Source: Candidatus Eiseniibacteriota bacterium (GTDB lineage Bacteria > Arandabacterota > Arandabacteria > JAGLYR01). Taken from it: 9,359 bases of DNA. Location of the stretch: the NCBI GenBank assembly GCA_023132135.1, contig JAGLYR010000301.1, positions 1-9,359 on the forward strand, written 5' to 3'. Position numbers and translations under genes: made by a program. The stretch's first letter is position 1. Each line of letters opens with the position of its first letter. The notes under the pieces are model-generated. The model saw nothing but the letters and a program-made list of their open reading frames with translations, was not told where the DNA came from and ran no database searches. This document shows positions 3 through 8,994 of the stretch, piece by piece.

Positions 3-470
3 ATCATCAACGAGGTCCGCAGGCAATTCAGGGAGATCCCGGGACTGATGGACGGCACCGGGAAACCTGAGTACCGCCGTTGCGTGGACATCTGTACAAC
101 CTCCGCCCTTCGCGAGATGCTCCTGCCCGGCATCGTGACCGTGCTCTCCCCCATCGTGGTGGGCATCCTTCTGGGACCGTCAGGACTGGGAGGCTTCCTT
201 GTCGGCGCCATCGCCACAGGTTTCATCCTGGCTGTGACCATGGCCAACGCGGGGGGAAGCTGGGACAATGCCAAGAAGTACATCGAGGCGGGTCACCTCG
301 GGGGCAAGGGATCCGACAGCCACAAGGCCGCTGTCGTGGGCGACACCGTGGGCGATCCGATGAAGGACACCTCGGGTCCGTCTCTCAACATCATGATCAA
401 GTTGATGTCCATCATCGCTCTTGTTCTGGCGCCTGTGCTCGCGAAGTTCAGTGGACTGTTGAAATTCTAG
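3..470 (+). CDS. hppA: Membrane-bound ion-translocating pyrophosphatase, C-terminal part (5' end outside window)
   Basis: This is the last 155 residues of a membrane-integral pyrophosphatase, which hydrolyses cytoplasmic pyrophosphate and pumps H+ and/or Na+ across the inner membrane. The frame is open from base 3, so the gene begins upstream; the full family is about 650-800 residues. Seen in the sequence: the conserved [12 protein letters not shown] stretch followed by [17 protein letters not shown]. These carry the Asp, Asn and Lys residues that in characterised enzymes coordinate Mg-pyrophosphate. Three hydrophobic segments fit the last membrane helices: one around [20 protein letters not shown], one around [19 protein letters not shown], and a C-terminal helix ending in FSGLLKF. 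The residues that distinguish K+-dependent from K+-independent and Na+ from H+ pumps lie upstream, so the subtype cannot be called. The gene is convergent with the histidine kinase, and a strong hairpin follows the stop codon by two bases. Family identity is very secure. Confidence 0.96.
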
Positions 471-472
471 GG

Positions 473-505
473 GGAAAAGGGCGACCCACCGGGTCGCCCT
501 TTTCC
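473..505. terminator. Bidirectional intrinsic terminator between convergent genes
   Basis: A perfect 15-bp inverted repeat, GGAAAAGGGCGACCC (473-487) and GGGTCGCCCTTTTCC (491-505), encloses a 3-base ACC loop. It starts two bases after the pyrophosphatase stop and lies 40 bases beyond the histidine kinase stop on the other strand. The GC-rich core is flanked inside the stem by A4 and T4, so a transcript from either strand gives a GC hairpin followed by a short U run. This fits a terminator shared by both convergent transcription units. The U run is only four long before CC, so efficiency is uncertain. Confidence 0.85.
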
Positions 506-544: not shown

Positions 545-2311
545 CTAGACTAGTGTCTCCACGAGAATCTCGGCTTCCATATCCGTCTGCTTGCGCGCGG
601 CTTCCTCCGCCAGTCGATTCACCGGGAGTGTGAGCCGGAATACCGTTCCCCACTTCGGATTGCTCGAGACCGAGATCTGTCCCCGGTGGTTCATCACAAC
701 CCGGCGGCAGACCGCCAAACCAAAACCATGGCCGTGTTTCTTCGTGGTGAAACTGGGCTCGAAGATCCGTTGCAACAGCTCCTTCGGAATTCCGGGGCCG
801 TTATCCTGAACTTCCACCACAGCCTCATCATGCTCCGCGCGGCAATGCACCCGAACCGTGATCTCGCCATCCCGCTCGGGGCCGATGGCGTCAGCAGCGT
901 TGGAAAACAGGTTGAGCAGAACCTGCTGCATCTGCTGCGGATCCAGGCACATGGTCGGCAAAGAATCCTGAATATCGATACTGAAATGAGTCCGGTCGTA
1001 CTTGTTCTGGGGCTGCACAAAGGCCACCGTCTGCTCGATGAGATCGCCCAGATCACAGTCGATCTCCCTCGTGTCCTGCCTCGATGAATCCATCAGCCCA
1101 TTGGTCAGTACCTGGATTCTTGAGGTCTGGTCTGCGATGATCCTGGCGTTCGCCATTGCTTTGTCCAGGTCACCTCTTTCGATGGTCATGGGAATCAAAT
1201 CGGCCCGACCGGAGATCACGGCAATGTAGTTGTTGAGCTCGTGCCCGATCTCCGCGGACATTTCCCCCATCGCGGCAAGACGGGCAGAGGTAACGAGCTG
1301 GGCCTGCGCTTCCCGGAGACTGCGGTTCAGTTCCGAAATCTCCCGATTTCGTCTCTCCAGATCCGCTGTCCTCTCGGCCACCCTTTGCTCCAACGTGCGA
1401 TTGTACTCCTCGATTTCCTCCCGCGATGTCCGAAGGTCCTCGATCATCTGGTTGAAGGATTCCGCCAGATTGCCGATCTCGTCCCGCGACTTCACCCGGA
1501 CCCGGAGCGAGAGATCCCCGTTAGCAATTCGCTTCGTGCCCAGAACCAGGTCCCGGATCGGTTCCACAATGGTCTGGATGACAGGGACGGTCAGCGAGAG
1601 AGACACGCCGACGACCAGGAGCGTCAGAAGGATGGCCAGCCGTTTTTCCCTTGCCAGACGAGCATTCATCTCGGCCAGGGAAATACCGACGCTGGCCTCC
1701 CCTACAACCGGGCCCCGCGACTGCACCGGACCAGCGGCGGACCGGACAACTTCCGCGATCGCGAGTTCATCATCTTTGCCCGGATCCTTCAGAACTTCGT
1801 CGCCGAAGAAGAGACTCATCTCCTCTTCCGCCTTCTTTTCTCTCTGGATGTGGATGGAACAGGAGAATTCGTAGATCTGCTCCCCGTTCTCGAGTTCGAA
1901 GGTCTTGATTTCAACCCCTTGATCCGTCTGAGGCTCCTGCAGGTAGCTCTCCCTGAGGCGGGAACGGATGTTCTCCTGCCCGTCCCTCTCCAATCGGGCC
2001 AGAAGGGCGCCCTGCTCATCGTACACAGAACAGTAGACGACGCCGGGTTCCCGCAACACACCCTGGGCGATCTTGCGGATCATCTGCTCATCGTTCGCGA
2101 AAGTGCCGTACTCGCAGTTGTAGGCAAATCCGCGGGCGAGGGAAATGCCCCGGCTTACCACGCTGCGCCGGATGTTGACGGCCTCGTGCCGGGCGAAGAA
2201 CTGCCCCAGAGCCACAGAGGCCATGACGATGAGAAGTGAAACCGAAAGAAGCAATTTGGCGCGAAGACCGATACGCGGCGTGTTCAATCGCAGCTCTCCC
2301 CTCAATACCAT
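545..2311 (-). CDS. Membrane sensor histidine kinase (periplasmic sensor, HAMP, coiled coil, HisKA/HATPase)
   Basis: This 588-residue sensor kinase should autophosphorylate on His357 and pass the phosphate to an unlinked response regulator. Seen in order: an N-terminal membrane helix (about 16-37); a periplasmic region (about 40-224); a second helix (about 225-248); HAMP (about 248-300); a coiled coil (about 295-342); the H-box GEMSAEIGHELNN (349-361), with His357, Glu358 and Asn361 as in HExxN kinases; and a GHKL ATPase with N-box NLFSNAADAI, G1 DNGPGIP (503-509), F-box IFEPSFTTKK and G2 GHGFGL. All catalytic motifs are intact. The sensor region contains ARGFAYNCEYG and a REPGVVYCSVYDEQG strand-turn, suggesting a Cache/PAS-like fold, plus a highly charged insertion (about 157-190). 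It lies 54 bases after the substrate-binding protein gene, which suggests that protein or its ligand as the input. GGGAGGG sits unusually close to the ATG; a TTG two codons later (2305) is better spaced and is a possible true start. Confidence 0.93.
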   Translation of the reverse strand: MVLRGELRLNTPRIGLRAKLLLSVSLLIVMASVALGQFFARHEAVNIRRSVVSRGISLARGFAYNCEYGTFANDEQMIRKIAQGVLREPGVVYCSVYDEQGALLARLERDGQENIRSRLRESYLQEPQTDQGVEIKTFELENGEQIYEFSCSIHIQREKKAEEEMSLFFGDEVLKDPGKDDELAIAEVVRSAAGPVQSRGPVVGEASVGISLAEMNARLAREKRLAILLTLLVVGVSLSLTVPVIQTIVEPIRDLVLGTKRIANGDLSLRVRVKSRDEIGNLAESFNQMIEDLRTSREEIEEYNRTLEQRVAERTADLERRNREISELNRSLREAQAQLVTSARLAAMGEMSAEIGHELNNYIAVISGRADLIPMTIERGDLDKAMANARIIADQTSRIQVLTNGLMDSSRQDTREIDCDLGDLIEQTVAFVQPQNKYDRTHFSIDIQDSLPTMCLDPQQMQQVLLNLFSNAADAIGPERDGEITVRVHCRAEHDEAVVEVQDNGPGIPKELLQRIFEPSFTTKKHGHGFGLAVCRRVVMNHRGQISVSSNPKWGTVFRLTLPVNRLAEEAARKQTDMEAEILVETLV

Positions 2312-2365
2312 GCCCTCCCAGCTATCGGTCGCTTGCGGGAAGGACTTGAATTCGTGCGAACAAAC

Positions 2366-3316
2366 CTACTTGCGAACCTCCTTCGCCTTGGCGACAACCG
2401 GGGAAGGAATCTCGATTCCGATGAGGCGAGCGGTCCGCAGGCTGAGGTGCAGGGCAGTAGCTCTCGGGGACGATACCGGAATCCCACCGGCCGATTGGCC
2501 GGCGAGGATCTGCAACACGTTCTCGCTGGCCTGCCGGCCCATGTCCTGATAGTCGCACGACAGGGCAAGCAGGGCCCCCGCCTTCACAAAGGAGGCGGAC
2601 AGTCCCATGAAGGGAATGCCGCACCTCAGGGTGGTGAGGATGATGTGCTCTGTGGAGATGCTGCTGAAGGCGATGGGATCGGGAATACCCCAGAGGGCAT
2701 CGACGTCGCGGGTCAGATCCCGCAGAACCTTCGGCACCGCCTCGTCCGACGCAACCTCGGCCGGGACCAGCTTCAGCCCCATGCTGTCGGCGATTCCCGC
2801 TGCCAATTCGATGAGCCGGCGGTTTCGATCGGTGCTGTAGAGGACGCCGATCCTCCGCGCCCCGGGAACCGTCTCCCTGAGCGCTTCCAGTTGCGCCTGG
2901 ATGGGAATGTCCATCTCGACGCCCGTCGTGCAGCCACCCGGCTGTTTCGGATCGTCCACGAATCCCTTGCCCTCTGGATCCAGAACCATGCAGAAAACCG
3001 TTGGGAGATCCATATTCATGGAAAGCACCCGATCCGTGGCAACCGTCCCCACCGTCACCACAACTTCAATGCCCTCTTCGACGATGACTTCGGCGAACCG
3101 GGCCTCTGCCTCGGGTTCCTCCGAGCTGAGCATCACAACTACGTTAACTCCGGCCGCGTCGAGGGCGCCGGTCAGACCCTCTACCGCCTGGCGGAAGGGC
3201 CCGATATCCCGGGAGTTCAGGATCAGGACCCCATTGGACCAGGCTCCCGGGCACCAGGACAACACGAGCCCGAGGCTGATCACAAGCGTGAGCAGCATGT
3301 TCCTCAACCCGACCAT
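2366..3316 (-). CDS. ABC-type substrate-binding protein (ABC_sub_bind / TrpX-like family), no ABC partners
   Basis: This periplasmic binding protein of 316 residues resembles the ABC_sub_bind (PF04392) family, some members of which bind aromatic amino acids or similar small ligands. Seen: a hydrophobic signal sequence ending near GAWS-N (residue 27); a two-lobe alternation of beta strands and helices; VVVTVGTVATDRVL near residues 85-100; the lobe-crossing RRIGVLYSTDRN (154-165); DALWGIPD (206-213); GIPFMGLSASFVKAGALLALS (about 233-253); and a C-terminal GIEIPSPVVAKAKEV, typical of the family. A GTG at 3331 extends the frame by five codons. ATG 3316 is preferred because GGAG lies six bases before it, whereas the GTG is only about three bases from its nearest purine run. 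No permease or ATPase gene is in the window, and the histidine kinase follows directly, so a ligand-sensing role is inferred. The Cys in LSWC does not make a convincing lipobox. The ligand cannot be predicted. Confidence 0.88.
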   Translation of the reverse strand: MVGLRNMLLTLVISLGLVLSWCPGAWSNGVLILNSRDIGPFRQAVEGLTGALDAAGVNVVVMLSSEEPEAEARFAEVIVEEGIEVVVTVGTVATDRVLSMNMDLPTVFCMVLDPEGKGFVDDPKQPGGCTTGVEMDIPIQAQLEALRETVPGARRIGVLYSTDRNRRLIELAAGIADSMGLKLVPAEVASDEAVPKVLRDLTRDVDALWGIPDPIAFSSISTEHIILTTLRCGIPFMGLSASFVKAGALLALSCDYQDMGRQASENVLQILAGQSAGGIPVSSPRATALHLSLRTARLIGIEIPSPVVAKAKEVRK

Positions 3317-3322
3317 CAAAGT

Positions 3323-3327
3323 CTCCA
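3323..3327 (-). promoter_or_regulatory. Shine-Dalgarno deciding the substrate-binding protein start
   Basis: TGGAG on the minus strand lies six bases before ATG 3316. It supports that start over the in-frame GTG at 3331. Confidence 0.55.
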
Positions 3328-3345
3328 GCACACTTCCTCAGACTT

Positions 3346-4371
3346 CTACCACGAGTATGCGATCGACAACTGGTGGATGTCCTCCAGTGCCTCCACGCCG
3401 CTGTACGCGTAGTCCAGCCTGAGGTCCCCGCGGATCCGTCCGGGAATATTCAACCCGATGCCGAAGAAGGGCCCCCGCCCCTCCCAGTTGAGAATTCCAC
3501 CAGCCCTCAGGGCAAGAACACGCCGGAGAACATACTCCGTTCCCACATGCAACCTCTCCGGTGCATCATTCGGGTGCGTGAAATCCATCGCGACCGTCAG
3601 CTTCTGTGACGAGCTCATCATTGGGTCATACGCGATGCCCGCCTGGAACATCAGCGGCAGGTCGTAGTCACCCAGCGACTTGCTGTCCGCAACCTGGGCG
3701 CTCCCGACGTAGTACTTGTCGAGATAGTCTCCTCCGAAGGTGAGGCTCGGGCCGAAGTTCGTGGCGGACACCCCGAACCGGAGGCTCCGGAAACCTGTGT
3801 GGTAGAGAGTCCCAAAGTCAAAGGCCACTCCCTGAGCACTCCCGCTGTAGCCGATCGCGCTGATGGAGCCGACCCCCTCGCGGATGTACTTCGCCGTGCC
3901 TCCCACGGAGAACCGATCCGTCAGATTCCTCGCGTACGAGATCCCGATTGCCAGATCACTCCAGCTGAACTCCTCACCACTAGCTACGCCGTTGATCTCG
4001 TTCGCTGTGGTCACCTGCATGCTCCCGCTCGAGAGCGAGATCACGCTGAGCGCCACCGTTCCACCCAGACGGTCCACCGCCTGGGCATAGGCAAAGCTGG
4101 TCACGCGGATGCCGGCGATGTACTCTGTGTCACAGAGCCAGACGCTGCGCTGCCACATCTGCGCAAGTCCCGCGGCGTTCCAGAAAACGGACGCCGCTCC
4201 CCCCCCCGGGGTTGCCACGGCGGCACCGCCCATGCCGACCTGCCTTGGGCCGTACCCCAACCGGAGGAACAGGGCACCCGCGGTCCCCGTGTTGTCCACA
4301 GCCATGACCTCACCGCACGTGGCGCAGATTCCCAGGAGCACGATCACGATCCATGCAGATAGCCGTCTCAT
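3346..4371 (-). CDS. PorV/PorQ-family outer-membrane beta-barrel protein
   Basis: This 341-residue exported protein fits the PorV/PorQ (UPF0164-like) outer-membrane barrel family, whose PorV members bind sorting-domain cargo in type IX secretion. Seen: a signal peptide with cleavage likely at EVMA-VDNTG (about residue 24); the family's N-terminal signature, FLRLGYGPRQVGMGGAAVA (35-53), then SVFWNAAGLA (61-70), a variant of the usual NPAGLA; many alternating beta strands such as LTVAMDF and GDLRLDYAYSG; and a C-terminal strand HQLSIAYSW ending in an aromatic residue, as outer-membrane barrels do. Length is normal for the family. AAAGGGG lies 11 bases before the ATG. The gene starts 30 bases after the sorting-domain protein and precedes the substrate-binding protein by 29 bases, within the same presumed operon. 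Neighbouring a sorting-domain protein supports a cargo-handling role, but a separate transport or structural role is equally possible because paralogues of this family are diverse. Confidence 0.88.
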   Translation of the reverse strand: MRRLSAWIVIVLLGICATCGEVMAVDNTGTAGALFLRLGYGPRQVGMGGAAVATPGGGAASVFWNAAGLAQMWQRSVWLCDTEYIAGIRVTSFAYAQAVDRLGGTVALSVISLSSGSMQVTTANEINGVASGEEFSWSDLAIGISYARNLTDRFSVGGTAKYIREGVGSISAIGYSGSAQGVAFDFGTLYHTGFRSLRFGVSATNFGPSLTFGGDYLDKYYVGSAQVADSKSLGDYDLPLMFQAGIAYDPMMSSSQKLTVAMDFTHPNDAPERLHVGTEYVLRRVLALRAGGILNWEGRGPFFGIGLNIPGRIRGDLRLDYAYSGVEALEDIHQLSIAYSW

Positions 4372-4401
4372 TGCGAATTCAGCCCCTTTCCGACGGGCGT
4401 C

Positions 4402-6168
4402 TCATCTCTGGCCGTTGATGATGGCGAACTTCCCTACCTTCTGGCCCAGCCCGGGGGCTGTTACCGAATACAGGTAGAGACCGCTCGCCACAGACTGCCG
4501 GTCGTAGGTCAGAAGGTTCCAGGATTCTGTTCCGATGGCCGGGTCATTGTGCTCAACCGAGTACACCAGATCTCCGGCCAGGTTGTAGATCCTCAGAGTG
4601 CATTGCTCAGGCAAATTGCTGAACAGGATCTTTCCCTCGTAGTCGACGAGTTCCCAATCGGCCGAGCCCACGTAGGGATTCGGGGCCACGGTAATCCGGC
4701 TGAGGGAACTAGCGGTTGCCACGGACCCTTCCACCGCTGTCAGCGTCTTGCTCCACGCCGAATACGCGTTGGATTCCAGGCCCGTCCCGCTCTCAGATGT
4801 CACCAGGAAGAACTGCCCGAATCCGGGCTCCAGATCCACCTCGTAACTCCGGGTCCCGGCCGGGAGTTCGGCGAGGAGCTCCCAGGGACCGATCGCCGTC
4901 GCCTGCGACCAGTAGAGGTTGTAGTGATCGAACCCCGGGTCGGTCTCCGCGTCCGCCGACCACAATACCTCGGCCGTCAGACCCGAGATCTGCGGATCTT
5001 CGATCACAGGCTGTGGAGGTGACACGCCCGCCAGCTCGTAGCCCCCGTTGTGGAAGTCCACGAGATCACGGGTGTTTTCCAGGAGCGACCCCAGTGAACT
5101 GGCCGCCTGGGTCACCCCATCACCCAGAACGTAGGCGATGACGAAAACCGCTGAATCCCCGGCTCTCACCGAGTACGGGCCCACGCCCGTCTGAATCCGG
5201 TAGTCAAAGCCCGAAACCGGAAGATCAATGTCCTTCTCGTTGCTGGACAGACGCTCATAGGCATCGGACTCGCCCGTGACATCACTGTTCCAGTCCCACC
5301 AGTTGAACCCCGACCAGGACACGGATGGAGCCTTCACCGTCGTCCCGGTAACAGCCCCTCCCGGCAACGGCGCCTCCAGCAGAATCTGACCAATGGCGGT
5401 CGTGGATACCTTGTCCCCGTCGGGTCTATCGGGATAGATGGGATCACCGTCCGCGTCGTACATGTAGGCCAGCCCGCTCTCCAGATCGAACCCCGCCAGG
5501 TCATCGATGTGGAAGTCACCGAGGATGTTGTTCCCAACGTCGCAGTCGCTCATCCATCCGAAGTAGAATTGCTCGATATCCTTCTCGAACTGGAGACGGT
5601 TCTCGAAGACGACAAAGCCATCATAGCCTGGCTGGTCCCAGGCCCGGATCGTCCATTCCACCGTCACACCCGGATCCCTCTGGGAGTAGGCCGTGTTGAA
5701 CCGTGTCCGCACCGCCCGCATGCTCCCCTCGGACAAATCCTGGAACCCCTCATCGATCATGTCATAGTTGAGGAAGCTGAACTGGTCGAAGGTCCCTATG
5801 GCCATCCATGGATCCTCGTTGAAGAGCCCGAGACCCGTCGTATCCACATAGCCACCCAGCCAGATCCCTCCCTGCCAGAGGTGGCTGTTGCCGGATCCGC
5901 CCGGGTACTCGGCCGAGCTGGCCGCCAGTCCGATGAATCCCTTGTTGGAGATGTACGGAAGCCAGAAGCTCCCAACATCGAACCCGACGTCCCAGGCCAG
6001 CGATGCCGGGCTTTTCCCCGCTCTCGCTGCTGCCTGGTCCTCGAGCGCCGCGGCGGAGGTTTCCCATCCAGCGCTGTGGACCCGGCCGTGGACGGGCAGT
6101 GGGAGGAGAAGCGCCGCCACCACGGTCGCGACGACTCCCGTCCCAATCCTGTGCCATCTGTCTCTCAT
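4402..6168 (-). CDS. Secreted protein with FN3-like domain and type IX-like C-terminal sorting domain
   Basis: This 588-residue exported protein has no recognised catalytic domain. Seen: a basic N-terminus and hydrophobic signal segment (MRDRWHRIGTGVVATVV to about residue 30, cleaved near VHG or VHS); a large beta-rich body with GGSGNSHLWQGGIWLGGYVD (about 90-109), a pattern I recall from hypothetical exported FCB proteins; an Asp-rich YDADGDPIYPDRPDGDK stretch (about 237-253) resembling a calcium-binding loop; an FN3-like domain (about 390-475); and a C-terminal beta-sandwich (about 491-588) opening with TVAPNPY and including LRIYNLAGDLVYSV, ASGLYLYSV and VGKFAII. The last part matches the FlgD-Ig/Por secretion-tail type of domain. 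ATG 6168 is chosen over the frame's earlier ATG at 6204 because AAAGGGGG lies seven bases before it and the signal peptide begins there. Lying between a TonB receptor and a PorV-like barrel, it is inferred to be a surface-exposed partner or cargo; the substrate is unknown. Confidence 0.83.
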   Translation of the reverse strand: MRDRWHRIGTGVVATVVAALLLPLPVHGRVHSAGWETSAAALEDQAAARAGKSPASLAWDVGFDVGSFWLPYISNKGFIGLAASSAEYPGGSGNSHLWQGGIWLGGYVDTTGLGLFNEDPWMAIGTFDQFSFLNYDMIDEGFQDLSEGSMRAVRTRFNTAYSQRDPGVTVEWTIRAWDQPGYDGFVVFENRLQFEKDIEQFYFGWMSDCDVGNNILGDFHIDDLAGFDLESGLAYMYDADGDPIYPDRPDGDKVSTTAIGQILLEAPLPGGAVTGTTVKAPSVSWSGFNWWDWNSDVTGESDAYERLSSNEKDIDLPVSGFDYRIQTGVGPYSVRAGDSAVFVIAYVLGDGVTQAASSLGSLLENTRDLVDFHNGGYELAGVSPPQPVIEDPQISGLTAEVLWSADAETDPGFDHYNLYWSQATAIGPWELLAELPAGTRSYEVDLEPGFGQFFLVTSESGTGLESNAYSAWSKTLTAVEGSVATASSLSRITVAPNPYVGSADWELVDYEGKILFSNLPEQCTLRIYNLAGDLVYSVEHNDPAIGTESWNLLTYDRQSVASGLYLYSVTAPGLGQKVGKFAIINGQR

Positions 6169-6175
6169 CACGGTT

Positions 6176-6183
6176 CCCCCTTT
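6176..6183 (-). promoter_or_regulatory. Shine-Dalgarno deciding the sorting-domain protein start
   Basis: AAAGGGGG on the minus strand lies seven bases before ATG 6168, placing translation start 12 codons inside the longest frame. A GTG directly precedes this ATG in frame and could also be used. Confidence 0.6.
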
Positions 6184-6240
6184 CTCACAGGCGTCCAGGG
6201 TCACGCCCGGGGTAACTCAACCTTGCTGCGCTGCAGGGCA

Positions 6241-8994
6241 TCAGAAATCGACTCTGAATCCTGCCTTGATGACTCTGGGCGATCCATAGACCGTAGGATC
6301 GTCGTACGGACCGGTCCACCGGCCCGTCTCCAGCAGGTAGTTCATGGACTCCACGTCGCCGTCGTTGAAGTTGACCAGGTTCCGTTTGTCAAAGAGGTTG
6401 TTCACCCGGAGGAACAACGTCTCGCGCAGGTTCCAGAATCTGAAATACTTCTCGATGTGAAGATTGGCCCTCGAGATGCCGGGGAAGCGCCGGTTGTTCT
6501 GTTCCGGTTGCAGCGACTGAGCGGCAACGGTGTACGGGTTACCCGTGGCGTAGGTCCACAGGATGCTGAAACCCCAGTTGGGCACATCGCGGTAGCCCAG
6601 ATGGCAGGCGAGGCTGTGTCTCCGGTCCCAGTCGAGGAAGTACTTCTTCGTGGGCCGGTTCCGGCTTGAGGAACGGAACAGGTACCCTTCGATCACATCG
6701 GAACTGATACCCCGAGCCACCATGAAAGTGTACACCGCCTGAGCGCTCCACCGACCCACGGGATGCTTTTTGAGGGTGACCTCGAATCCCCTGACGTTTC
6801 CGTGCCCCAGGTTGTCGTACATCGTATACTCGTAGGGGAATGGGGCGGCGATCGTGATACCCGAGTAGGTCGTGATGGAATCGGCGATCTCGACCACATT
6901 TGCATCGTTGACCGTCCGGGTGTCGATCAGGTCCGAGATATCCTTGTAGAACCCCGTGATGTCCAGAGTGACATTCTCCGTGACCAGGTGATCCACACCC
7001 ATCTCGTACGAAACCGTGTGCTCCGGGTTCAGGTTCGGGTTGCCCGCCATCATCCAGAAACCATTGGTGTTCCACGTCGAGTTGTCATACAGGTAGTTGG
7101 CCGGGGGCGTCTCGTAGAAGTGCCCGTAGAAAAAGTGGAAGACGTCCCGGTCGCTGATGGGATGCGATACACCGATCCGTGGACACAGTTTGAATTTGGT
7201 CCCGGTCCGCTGGGTTCTGTTCTCTTCCCACTGTCCCGTGGCGTAGTCCATCCGGTATCCTGTCGGCGCCCACACGCGGTCCGAGTGGCCCCAGAGGGAA
7301 TCGGGAGCGGAAGGATCCCACGGGTAGACGGGCGTGGCGGGATCCCGATCCGTGATGGTCTGGCCGGTGAACACATCCCTGGGAACATCGGTCCGGGCGT
7401 TGAAGAACTCACCCCGGAGCCCCAGGTTGACCACCATGCCCTCATACTCCATCTTGTCCTGGATGTAGAGGGCGCCGTAGGTCGGATGGGCGTCGTACTT
7501 GTAGCCGTAGGTGTTACCCGCAGAGGCATAGATGCTCGCGCGGCGCAGCTGTGTTCTTTCGAGATCGCCACCGACCTGGATCTCATGCCGGGGAGTAACC
7601 TGGGATACCAGGCTGGTCCGCAGGGTCAGCGTATTGAAGTAGCGATCCTCGAAGTAGTTGTTGTCACCATCGACGAACAATCGATCTTCGTTCCTTTCGG
7701 GCGAGATGATGTCCACGGGCCTGCAATTGACCCCTTCCAGAGCGTTGGGATCGCCTGTGTTCCATGCCTCGCTCTTGTTGATGTCCCACCAGCGATCGGG
7801 TTGGGCGATTCGCGCGCTGGAGCTGTGGTATCCGATCCTGAGCCGGTAGTAGGTCTCATCGCTCAGGAGATGAGAGAGATCGGCGTAGCCGATGGAGCTT
7901 TTTCGCGCGCCCTCAAGAAACGTGTCGGGGACCAGCTGCCGGACGGCTTCCCATATTCGCCACGTCGCGTCATACCGGAGTCCTCCGATCTTAAGCTTGG
8001 CCCGGGGAGAAATCTCCATGGTGAGGGTACCGAGGGCCTGGTAGTTGGTCCGCCCCTGGTTGTCCAGCGTATGCACGTGCGGGTCCCAGTCGTCCCACGC
8101 GGAGCGCTCGTAGACTCCGAACAGGGCAACCCTCGGCGTGCTGAGGAGCGGTCCCGACAGGGTGAACCGGGTCTTGCGCTCACCGGTATCGTTCTGGTCA
8201 ATGCGCCAGTTCCCCGAACCGACTCCACTGAACGGCAGTGCGAAGCGGTGGAGAACCTGCCCCGACCATTGCCGGCCCCCCTCCCTGGAAACCATGTTCA
8301 CGATGGCCGACTGGGCATCCCCGAACTCCGCGTTGAAACCCCCGCTCAGGATGGTCATCTCCGAAACGGAGTTCTGCGGAAGGTGCAGGGCCAGCCTCTT
8401 GAAGATGGGATCCTTGATGCTGAATCCATCGAGCTGGTAGTTGATTTCGCTGGAGCGCCCACCTCGAACATGCGATCCCCGGATGTCGGCCGCATAACCC
8501 GGGTTGATGGACAGAACCTGCGGATAGGACTCCAGGGGCAGGATCTCATCCAGCTCCAGGCCCGAGAAAACAACCTGGGATGAGGTGAGGTCCTTGACAA
8601 TCAGGGACCGGGTGGCCTGGATCACCACCTCCTCCATCTCGATCGGCGACTCCTCGAGGGTGAAATTCACCTCCGTGGTCCGGTCCGCGGTGACCTTCAC
8701 TCCCTCGACAACTACCGCCTGGTAGCCGATGAAGGAAGCCCTGACGGTGTACGTCCCGGGAGGCATGTTGAGGATGACATAGTACCCCTCGAAGTCGCTG
8801 GCGGCGCCCATCCGGGTACCTACCACCTCGATGTTCGTAGACGCCATCAGCGACTCGTCAGAGGCATCCACGATGCTGCCGCGGACCTTCCCCGTGGTGC
8901 CTGCCCACAAGGGGCTGCACCACACCAGAAAGACCATCAGGCCCAACGCAGTTGCACCAAGGGTTGCCCCGCGCATCTTCAGGAACGAGCACAT
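6241..8994 (-). CDS. TonB-dependent outer-membrane receptor with carboxypeptidase-regulatory-like domain
   Basis: This 917-residue TonB-dependent receptor would import an unidentified ligand across the outer membrane using TonB-ExbBD energy. Seen in order: a signal peptide ending near SPLWA-GTTG (residue 31); a carboxypeptidase-regulatory-like beta-sandwich (about 34-113) with GKVRGSIVDASDESLMASTN, FEGYYVILNMPPGTYTVRAS and FIGYQAVVVEGV; a linker with MEEVVIQATRS, possibly serving as the TonB box; a plug domain (about 130-240) with HVRGGRSSEINYQLDGFSI and SGGFNAEFGDAQSAIVNMVS; and a long barrel with aromatic-rich strands, including FHFFYGHFYETPP, NPNLNPEHTVSYEMGVDH and VTLDITGFYKDISDLIDT. It ends in AGFRVDF with a terminal Phe. 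ATG 8994 is chosen because AAAGGAG lies eight bases upstream; the frame extends 14 codons further but that stretch overlaps the leader repeat. It is the first gene of the presumed operon. No adjacent SusD-like gene is present; the next gene may play the partner role. Confidence 0.94.
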   Translation of the reverse strand: MCSFLKMRGATLGATALGLMVFLVWCSPLWAGTTGKVRGSIVDASDESLMASTNIEVVGTRMGAASDFEGYYVILNMPPGTYTVRASFIGYQAVVVEGVKVTADRTTEVNFTLEESPIEMEEVVIQATRSLIVKDLTSSQVVFSGLELDEILPLESYPQVLSINPGYAADIRGSHVRGGRSSEINYQLDGFSIKDPIFKRLALHLPQNSVSEMTILSGGFNAEFGDAQSAIVNMVSREGGRQWSGQVLHRFALPFSGVGSGNWRIDQNDTGERKTRFTLSGPLLSTPRVALFGVYERSAWDDWDPHVHTLDNQGRTNYQALGTLTMEISPRAKLKIGGLRYDATWRIWEAVRQLVPDTFLEGARKSSIGYADLSHLLSDETYYRLRIGYHSSSARIAQPDRWWDINKSEAWNTGDPNALEGVNCRPVDIISPERNEDRLFVDGDNNYFEDRYFNTLTLRTSLVSQVTPRHEIQVGGDLERTQLRRASIYASAGNTYGYKYDAHPTYGALYIQDKMEYEGMVVNLGLRGEFFNARTDVPRDVFTGQTITDRDPATPVYPWDPSAPDSLWGHSDRVWAPTGYRMDYATGQWEENRTQRTGTKFKLCPRIGVSHPISDRDVFHFFYGHFYETPPANYLYDNSTWNTNGFWMMAGNPNLNPEHTVSYEMGVDHLVTENVTLDITGFYKDISDLIDTRTVNDANVVEIADSITTYSGITIAAPFPYEYTMYDNLGHGNVRGFEVTLKKHPVGRWSAQAVYTFMVARGISSDVIEGYLFRSSSRNRPTKKYFLDWDRRHSLACHLGYRDVPNWGFSILWTYATGNPYTVAAQSLQPEQNNRRFPGISRANLHIEKYFRFWNLRETLFLRVNNLFDKRNLVNFNDGDVESMNYLLETGRWTGPYDDPTVYGSPRVIKAGFRVDF

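Follow-up and report, generated by a model that had tools for sequence, protein, structure and literature searches.

Pairs of a periplasmic binding protein and a sensor kinase are known from LuxP–LuxQ and TorT–TorS, and SusC–SusD joins a TonB receptor to a surface partner. In TrpXYZ-type ABC importers the binding protein works with a permease and an ATPase. BtuB–BtuG is a further pair of receptor and surface partner (PMC10404256). In the type IX attachment complex of Porphyromonas, PorZ is held at the cell surface by PorQ; PorV, besides shuttling cargo, anchors PorU (PMC5562754). In Flavobacterium, genes for type B CTD proteins often have those of cognate shuttle barrels close by (PMC12618676). 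The locus described here contains five genes, P0001 to P0005, each of a known kind, in a combination that we have not found described; a literature search on the family and receptor terms, with most subscription papers outside its reach, found no paper on the five-gene set.

The likeness to each of these systems is partial. As in the LuxP–LuxQ and TorT–TorS type, the gene of a soluble binding protein (P0004) adjoins that of a kinase with two TM segments and a sensor domain in the periplasm (P0005), but P0004 is an ABC_sub_bind/TrpX protein, and the pair is linked to the genes of an outer-membrane receptor and of that receptor's surface partner. As in SusC–SusD and BtuB–BtuG, a TonB receptor gene (P0001) adjoins the gene for a surface-exposed partner (P0002); here the partner, with a supersandwich, an FN3 domain and a probable type IX CTD, is neither SusD nor a surface lipoprotein, and its putative anchor is a PorV/PorQ-family barrel. 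P0002 and P0003 resemble PorZ–PorQ, PorU–PorV and the Flavobacterium CTD/shuttle pairs in combining a surface protein, here with a putative CTD, with an outer-membrane barrel (PMC5562754, PMC12618676). They differ in being linked to a TonB receptor, in scoring below the PorZ, PorQ and PorV equivalog cut-offs throughout and in having a supersandwich in place of propellers. P0004 has the fold and family of the TrpXYZ-type binding proteins, but it lacks a permease and an ATPase and is placed by its tree with receptor- and sensor-linked proteins.

The window, that is, the whole stretch of DNA analysed, makes up the entire contig C226 (9359 bp); the genome, 96% complete, has 3.4 Mb in 345 contigs. 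The five ORFs occupy 545–8994 of the minus strand (Table 1), and both the coordinates and the shared strand of the original prediction were verified, with intergenic gaps of 72, 30, 29 and 54 bp from P0001 to P0005. A simple scan found no promoter-like or terminator-like sites in the four gaps. The space of 74 bp between the kinase gene and the end of the convergent membrane pyrophosphatase gene contains the 15-bp stem of an inverted repeat (folding energy −40.1 kcal/mol, z −4.4), which is probably a bidirectional terminator and the 3′ end of the transcription unit. The pyrophosphatase is represented by its C-terminal part only (3–470, plus strand) and is of the membrane-bound proton/sodium-pumping type. 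The contig carries no response regulator gene. Family-model searches upheld the families first assigned to the five proteins, the type IX tail of P0002 remaining below threshold by HMM.

Table 1. Features of the window (positions in bp; domain and TM positions in residues)
Feature	Position	Strand	Description
P0001, TonB-dependent-receptor-like outer-membrane protein, 917 aa	6241..8994	-	signal peptide, CarboxypepD_reg domain, putative divergent plug region, OMP_b-brl_3 barrel
P0002, surface protein, 588 aa	4402..6168	-	signal peptide, predicted beta-supersandwich ~59-380, FN3-like 382-477, putative type IX C-terminal domain (PorZ-like) 484-585
P0003, PorV/PorQ-family outer-membrane barrel, 341 aa	3346..4371	-	NF033709 171.5 bits vs cut-off 90
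P0004, periplasmic ABC_sub_bind (TrpX-fold) binding protein, 316 aa	2366..3316	-	PF04392 137.8 bits
P0005, sensor histidine kinase, 588 aa	545..2311	-	TM 13-41, periplasmic cache-like domain, TM 222-250, HAMP, HisKA, HATPase_c
Perfect 15-bp inverted repeat	473..505		between convergent stop codons

P0001 matches CarbopepD_reg_2 and OMP_b-brl_3, both above cut-off (39.3 bits against 27 for OMP_b-brl_3). Pfam Plug (PF07715) gives no match at E ≤ 0.01, and inspection by eye shows a plug-like stretch at about 125–247. Other TonB receptors score at least 150 bits against an iterated profile built from P0001 alone, and the orthologues in relatives of the same class score 536–774 bits; the score against the SusC/RagA subfamily (TIGR04056), 47.7 bits, is far below the cut-off of 368. 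By its domain make-up P0001 appears to be a TonB-receptor-like barrel, and uptake energised by TonB/ExbBD is predicted. In the receptor tree it groups with the trios of its class (P0001–P0002–P0003 type).

The two predicted models of P0002 (pLDDT 60 for the first and 69.5 with a deeper alignment) agree in their main parts. The large N-terminal part is modelled as a beta-supersandwich of the kind found N-terminally in GH116 and GH94 enzymes (Z about 15, rmsd 3.6–4.2, about 250 residues aligned), followed by the FN3-like domain (Z 12.6). In the first model the tail superposes on the CTD of PorZ (5m11) with Z 12.4 and rmsd 2.5 over 90 residues, with 32% identity. The PorZ family model covers the tail alone (483–585) at 30.3 bits, below its equivalog cut-off, and is matched at E ≤ 0.01 by 20 of 27 relatives of P0002; the sorting-domain model TIGR04183 gives 16.4 against a cut-off of 23. 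Plain Foldseek puts tandem FN3 structures on top because the small Ig-like domains alone drive these ranks. The fold likeness of the models does not by itself show function. The earlier proposal that P0002 is the surface partner of the receptor is plausible; that it takes the place of SusD is not supported. Family-model searches found no SusD match in P0002. SprA is present in the window genome (G000:C275, a 1982-aa open frame that scores 482 bits together with its in-frame neighbours), and P0002 could therefore be secreted.

The PorV/PorQ family model NF033709 is matched by P0003 and by all 23 of its 23 relatives, and the P0003 family profile matches the solved PorV structure 6h3i_F at 111.7 bits. 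The PorQ equivalog (NF033711) gives 83.7 bits and the PorV equivalog (NF033710) 59.9, below their cut-offs of 220 and 250. As the PorQ score is the higher of the two and both are sub-threshold, PorQ-like anchoring is as likely as delivery; of the first description of P0003 as a PorV-like barrel handling delivery, the family thus stands and the role becomes one of two. By analogy with PorQ, PorV and the Flavobacterium shuttle barrels, P0003 may anchor P0002.

P0004 exceeds the PF04392 cut-off (25.9) by a wide margin and has the solved relatives 3lkv and 3lft. No lipobox was seen, and the protein is single copy in the window genome. Its score against the TrpX equivalog is 109.7, below the cut-off of 390. 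No permease or ATPase gene adjoins it in the window, and the window genome has no cognate ABC permease, the best match being 23.5 bits; genomes that do have the operon reach 592 and 259. In the binding-protein tree P0004 lies in a clade (support 95/80) with 22 other binding proteins, those of five-gene loci in a second phylum, and six from receptor/sensor loci; the orphan proteins of the window's own class fall apart from this clade. In P0005, HAMP (60.9) and HATPase_c (103.4) are above cut-off. HisKA, at 24.5, is just below its cut-off of 26.9, with the H-box GHELNN present, and sCache is also just below. On these sequence features P0005 is classed as a sensor histidine kinase. The kinase tree does not place it firmly, and its branch is long. 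Neighbouring genes for binding proteins and kinases sometimes lack a functional link (PMC11113362), and this is the chief caution on the coupling of P0004 to P0005.

The window's own phylum comprises eight genomes in all, the window genome and seven relatives. The P0001–P0002–P0003 block is present with its order kept in all seven relatives (L080–L088; some cut by contig ends), and in none of the seven does the P0004–P0005 pair lie beside it. The relative of P0004 is encoded elsewhere in these genomes (six have one of about 35% identity), and the closest kinase gene has a receiver and a symporter gene as neighbours. In several of them, as at L031, L033 and L035, the single-copy ABC_sub_bind gene is found at a site unexpected for a binding protein, between hemW and hrcA-grpE-dnaK. 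A fragment with 49% identity to P0004 (G007:C177) was considered as a second system and ruled out as a short remnant of the orphan type. In five sister genomes (L081–L085) the block is preceded by DUF1611 and mandelate-racemase/epimerase-family genes, and by NlpC/P60 where the contig reaches; the gene content of this upstream operon hints at the use of murein peptides or d-glutamate. DUF1611 has no match in the window genome. This genome has further receptor/P2/PorV blocks on C289 (L286) and C285 (L288) without a binding protein–kinase pair, the order on C285 being TonB, PorV, a lipoprotein-like gene and P2; on C288 (L287) the contig ends directly past the receptor gene. Taken alone, the absence of linkage in the phylum would suggest a chance neighbour and argue against a five-gene unit.

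A search for PF04392 over 386 genomes, followed by reading of the neighbourhoods, yielded all five families at two loci, L163 (G164) and L153 (G300), both from one phylum that is not the window's. L163 has exactly the order and strand of the window, followed by two receiver proteins; in L153 the block is divergent from the binding protein–kinase pair. In this second phylum 132 genomes were searched, 100 gave a binding-protein match and the loci of 48 were read. The kinase gene adjoins the binding-protein gene in 45 of the 48, the conserved adjacency expected of a LuxPQ-type pair, and contact between the two proteins is predicted. A member of the trio lies within 1.5 kb of the binding-protein gene in 43, and on longer stretches in three more (L261, L262 and L265), giving 46 of 48; the exceptions are mostly contig ends or short contigs. 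All five genes are found in 15 of the 20 longer loci, the other five being cut by contig or locus ends. In family f157, which includes G164, the order PorV–SBP–HK is present in 7 of 7 genomes, with five genes in the five that have enough contig.

Three arrangements occur in the second phylum: collinear (f157), divergent (most families), in which the trio lies back to back with SBP–HK–REC–REC–HK2, and permuted (f270), with the order SBP–HK–REC–HK2–TonB–P2. The fuller version in this phylum adds receivers and a receiver-kinase hybrid. Because the association recurs across another phylum, the linkage of the five genes goes beyond chance, and the grouping is a recurrent unit, though absent from the nearest relatives of the window. 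Failure of related genomes to link the last two genes to the first three was named as counting against the original prediction; within the window's own phylum this is what is seen. The order of five families that the prediction proposed to look for across genomes recurs exactly in f157, in divergent or permuted form elsewhere in the second phylum and not in the window's own phylum.

The surroundings of ABC_sub_bind genes were surveyed more widely in a sample of 113 PF04392 loci from across the bacteria. Of these, 37 lie next to a kinase or chemoreceptor gene on the same strand, 27 next to a TonB receptor gene and 12 next to both; an ABC permease gene adjoins 16, and 45 have none of the three partner types. 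In none of the 113 does a permease occur together with a TonB receptor or a sensor. TonB receptors are found on 28 of 189 near-flank sides as compared to 1 of 88 far-flank sides, and kinases or chemoreceptors on 43 of 189 as compared to 3 of 88; some genomes give several loci, so that in both comparisons the sides are not fully independent. This survey and the permease search speak for a P0004 that is linked to the kinase, as first proposed, and uncoupled from ABC transporters. Loci with a TonB receptor beside ABC_sub_bind, many with a kinase or chemoreceptor and all without a permease, come from many unrelated bacteria (L036, L040, L133, L141, L145, L151, L160, L171, L173, L175, L183 and others). 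At L114 (G144:C21), L123 and L132 (G092), ABC_sub_bind genes form tandem arrays of as many as six, with no permease gene next to them.

We propose that the five genes encode one envelope-spanning device for uptake and sensing, with surface capture, TonB-dependent import and sensing by the binding protein and the kinase, and we put the probability of this reading at about one in two. The gene order, the families, the recurrence of the set, the missing cognate permease and the presence of SprA are observed; the protein contacts, the ligand and its direction of flow are what we infer. P0002 would be exported by the type IX system of the genome, its CTD would dock on P0003 and the protein would be held at the outer membrane. 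There it would catch the ligand, or a polymer carrying the ligand, and hand it to P0001, which would move the ligand into the periplasm in a TonB-dependent manner. Having no ABC permease partner, P0004 in its ligand-bound form would dock on the cache-like domain of P0005, with no hand-off to an importer. P0005 would then signal to single-domain response regulators, which are kinase-adjacent in the second phylum and would be encoded elsewhere in the window genome. Somewhat more tentatively, at a little under even odds, ABC_sub_bind proteins freed from ABC transporters may be widespread transenvelope sensors that are fed by receptors and report to a kinase or chemoreceptor. The five-gene set would be the version of this design in type IX phyla, the receptor being served there by a surface protein anchored on a PorV/PorQ barrel.

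The main rival is regulatory coupling only: P0004 and P0005 would sense a small molecule or the state of the envelope and control expression of the block, which would not import the sensed ligand. The divergent arrangement in most second-phylum families, which gives the two halves a shared intergenic region, fits such control, and the three-gene block is found alone elsewhere (in the own-phylum relatives and as extra copies in the window genome). Type IX CTD surface proteins can also take part in signalling, as PorA does with PorXY (PMC7712824). PF04392 proteins are, however, also linked to TonB receptors of another subfamily and to chemoreceptors, which regulate no genes; receptor linkage therefore follows the binding protein itself. 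We regard regulation without import of the ligand as unlikely, with roughly half the weight given to the uptake-and-sensing device.

That the outer-membrane trio and the binding protein–kinase pair are two independent modules, adjacent by chance, is strongly disfavoured. It would account for the lack of the link in all seven own-phylum relatives and for the window trio being nearest to unlinked class trios, the other trio copies being unlinked as well, but not for three arrangements of the same association in another phylum together with the exact window order in f157. Equally improbable is that the trio is an attachment or assembly submodule of the type IX system, similar to PorZ/PorQ and with a barrel that does not import, the kinase monitoring secretion in the manner of PorXY. 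The PorZ-like CTD among the P0002 relatives, the PorQ-like score of P0003 and the presence of SprA fit this reading, but P0001 has the domain make-up of a TonB receptor, P0002 has a supersandwich as its main domain in place of the two beta-propellers of PorZ (PMC5562754), and the presence of several copies per genome is more in keeping with receptors for particular substrates than with a core component of secretion. A conventional tryptophan-type ABC importer fed by P0004 and regulated by the kinase would fit membership of PF04392, but is very improbable given the permease and TrpX scores above and the lack of an adjoining permease gene at every sensor-linked locus.

If the uptake-and-sensing device is correct, TonB import at the outer membrane, usually viewed as a matter of nutrition, would feed a dedicated sensor. 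Specific pairs are predicted, P0002 with P0003 and P0004 with P0005. Binding proteins that are normally annotated as parts of ABC transporters would often be something else, and many ABC_sub_bind annotations would change. The locus would also provide a handle on what little-known phyla sense.
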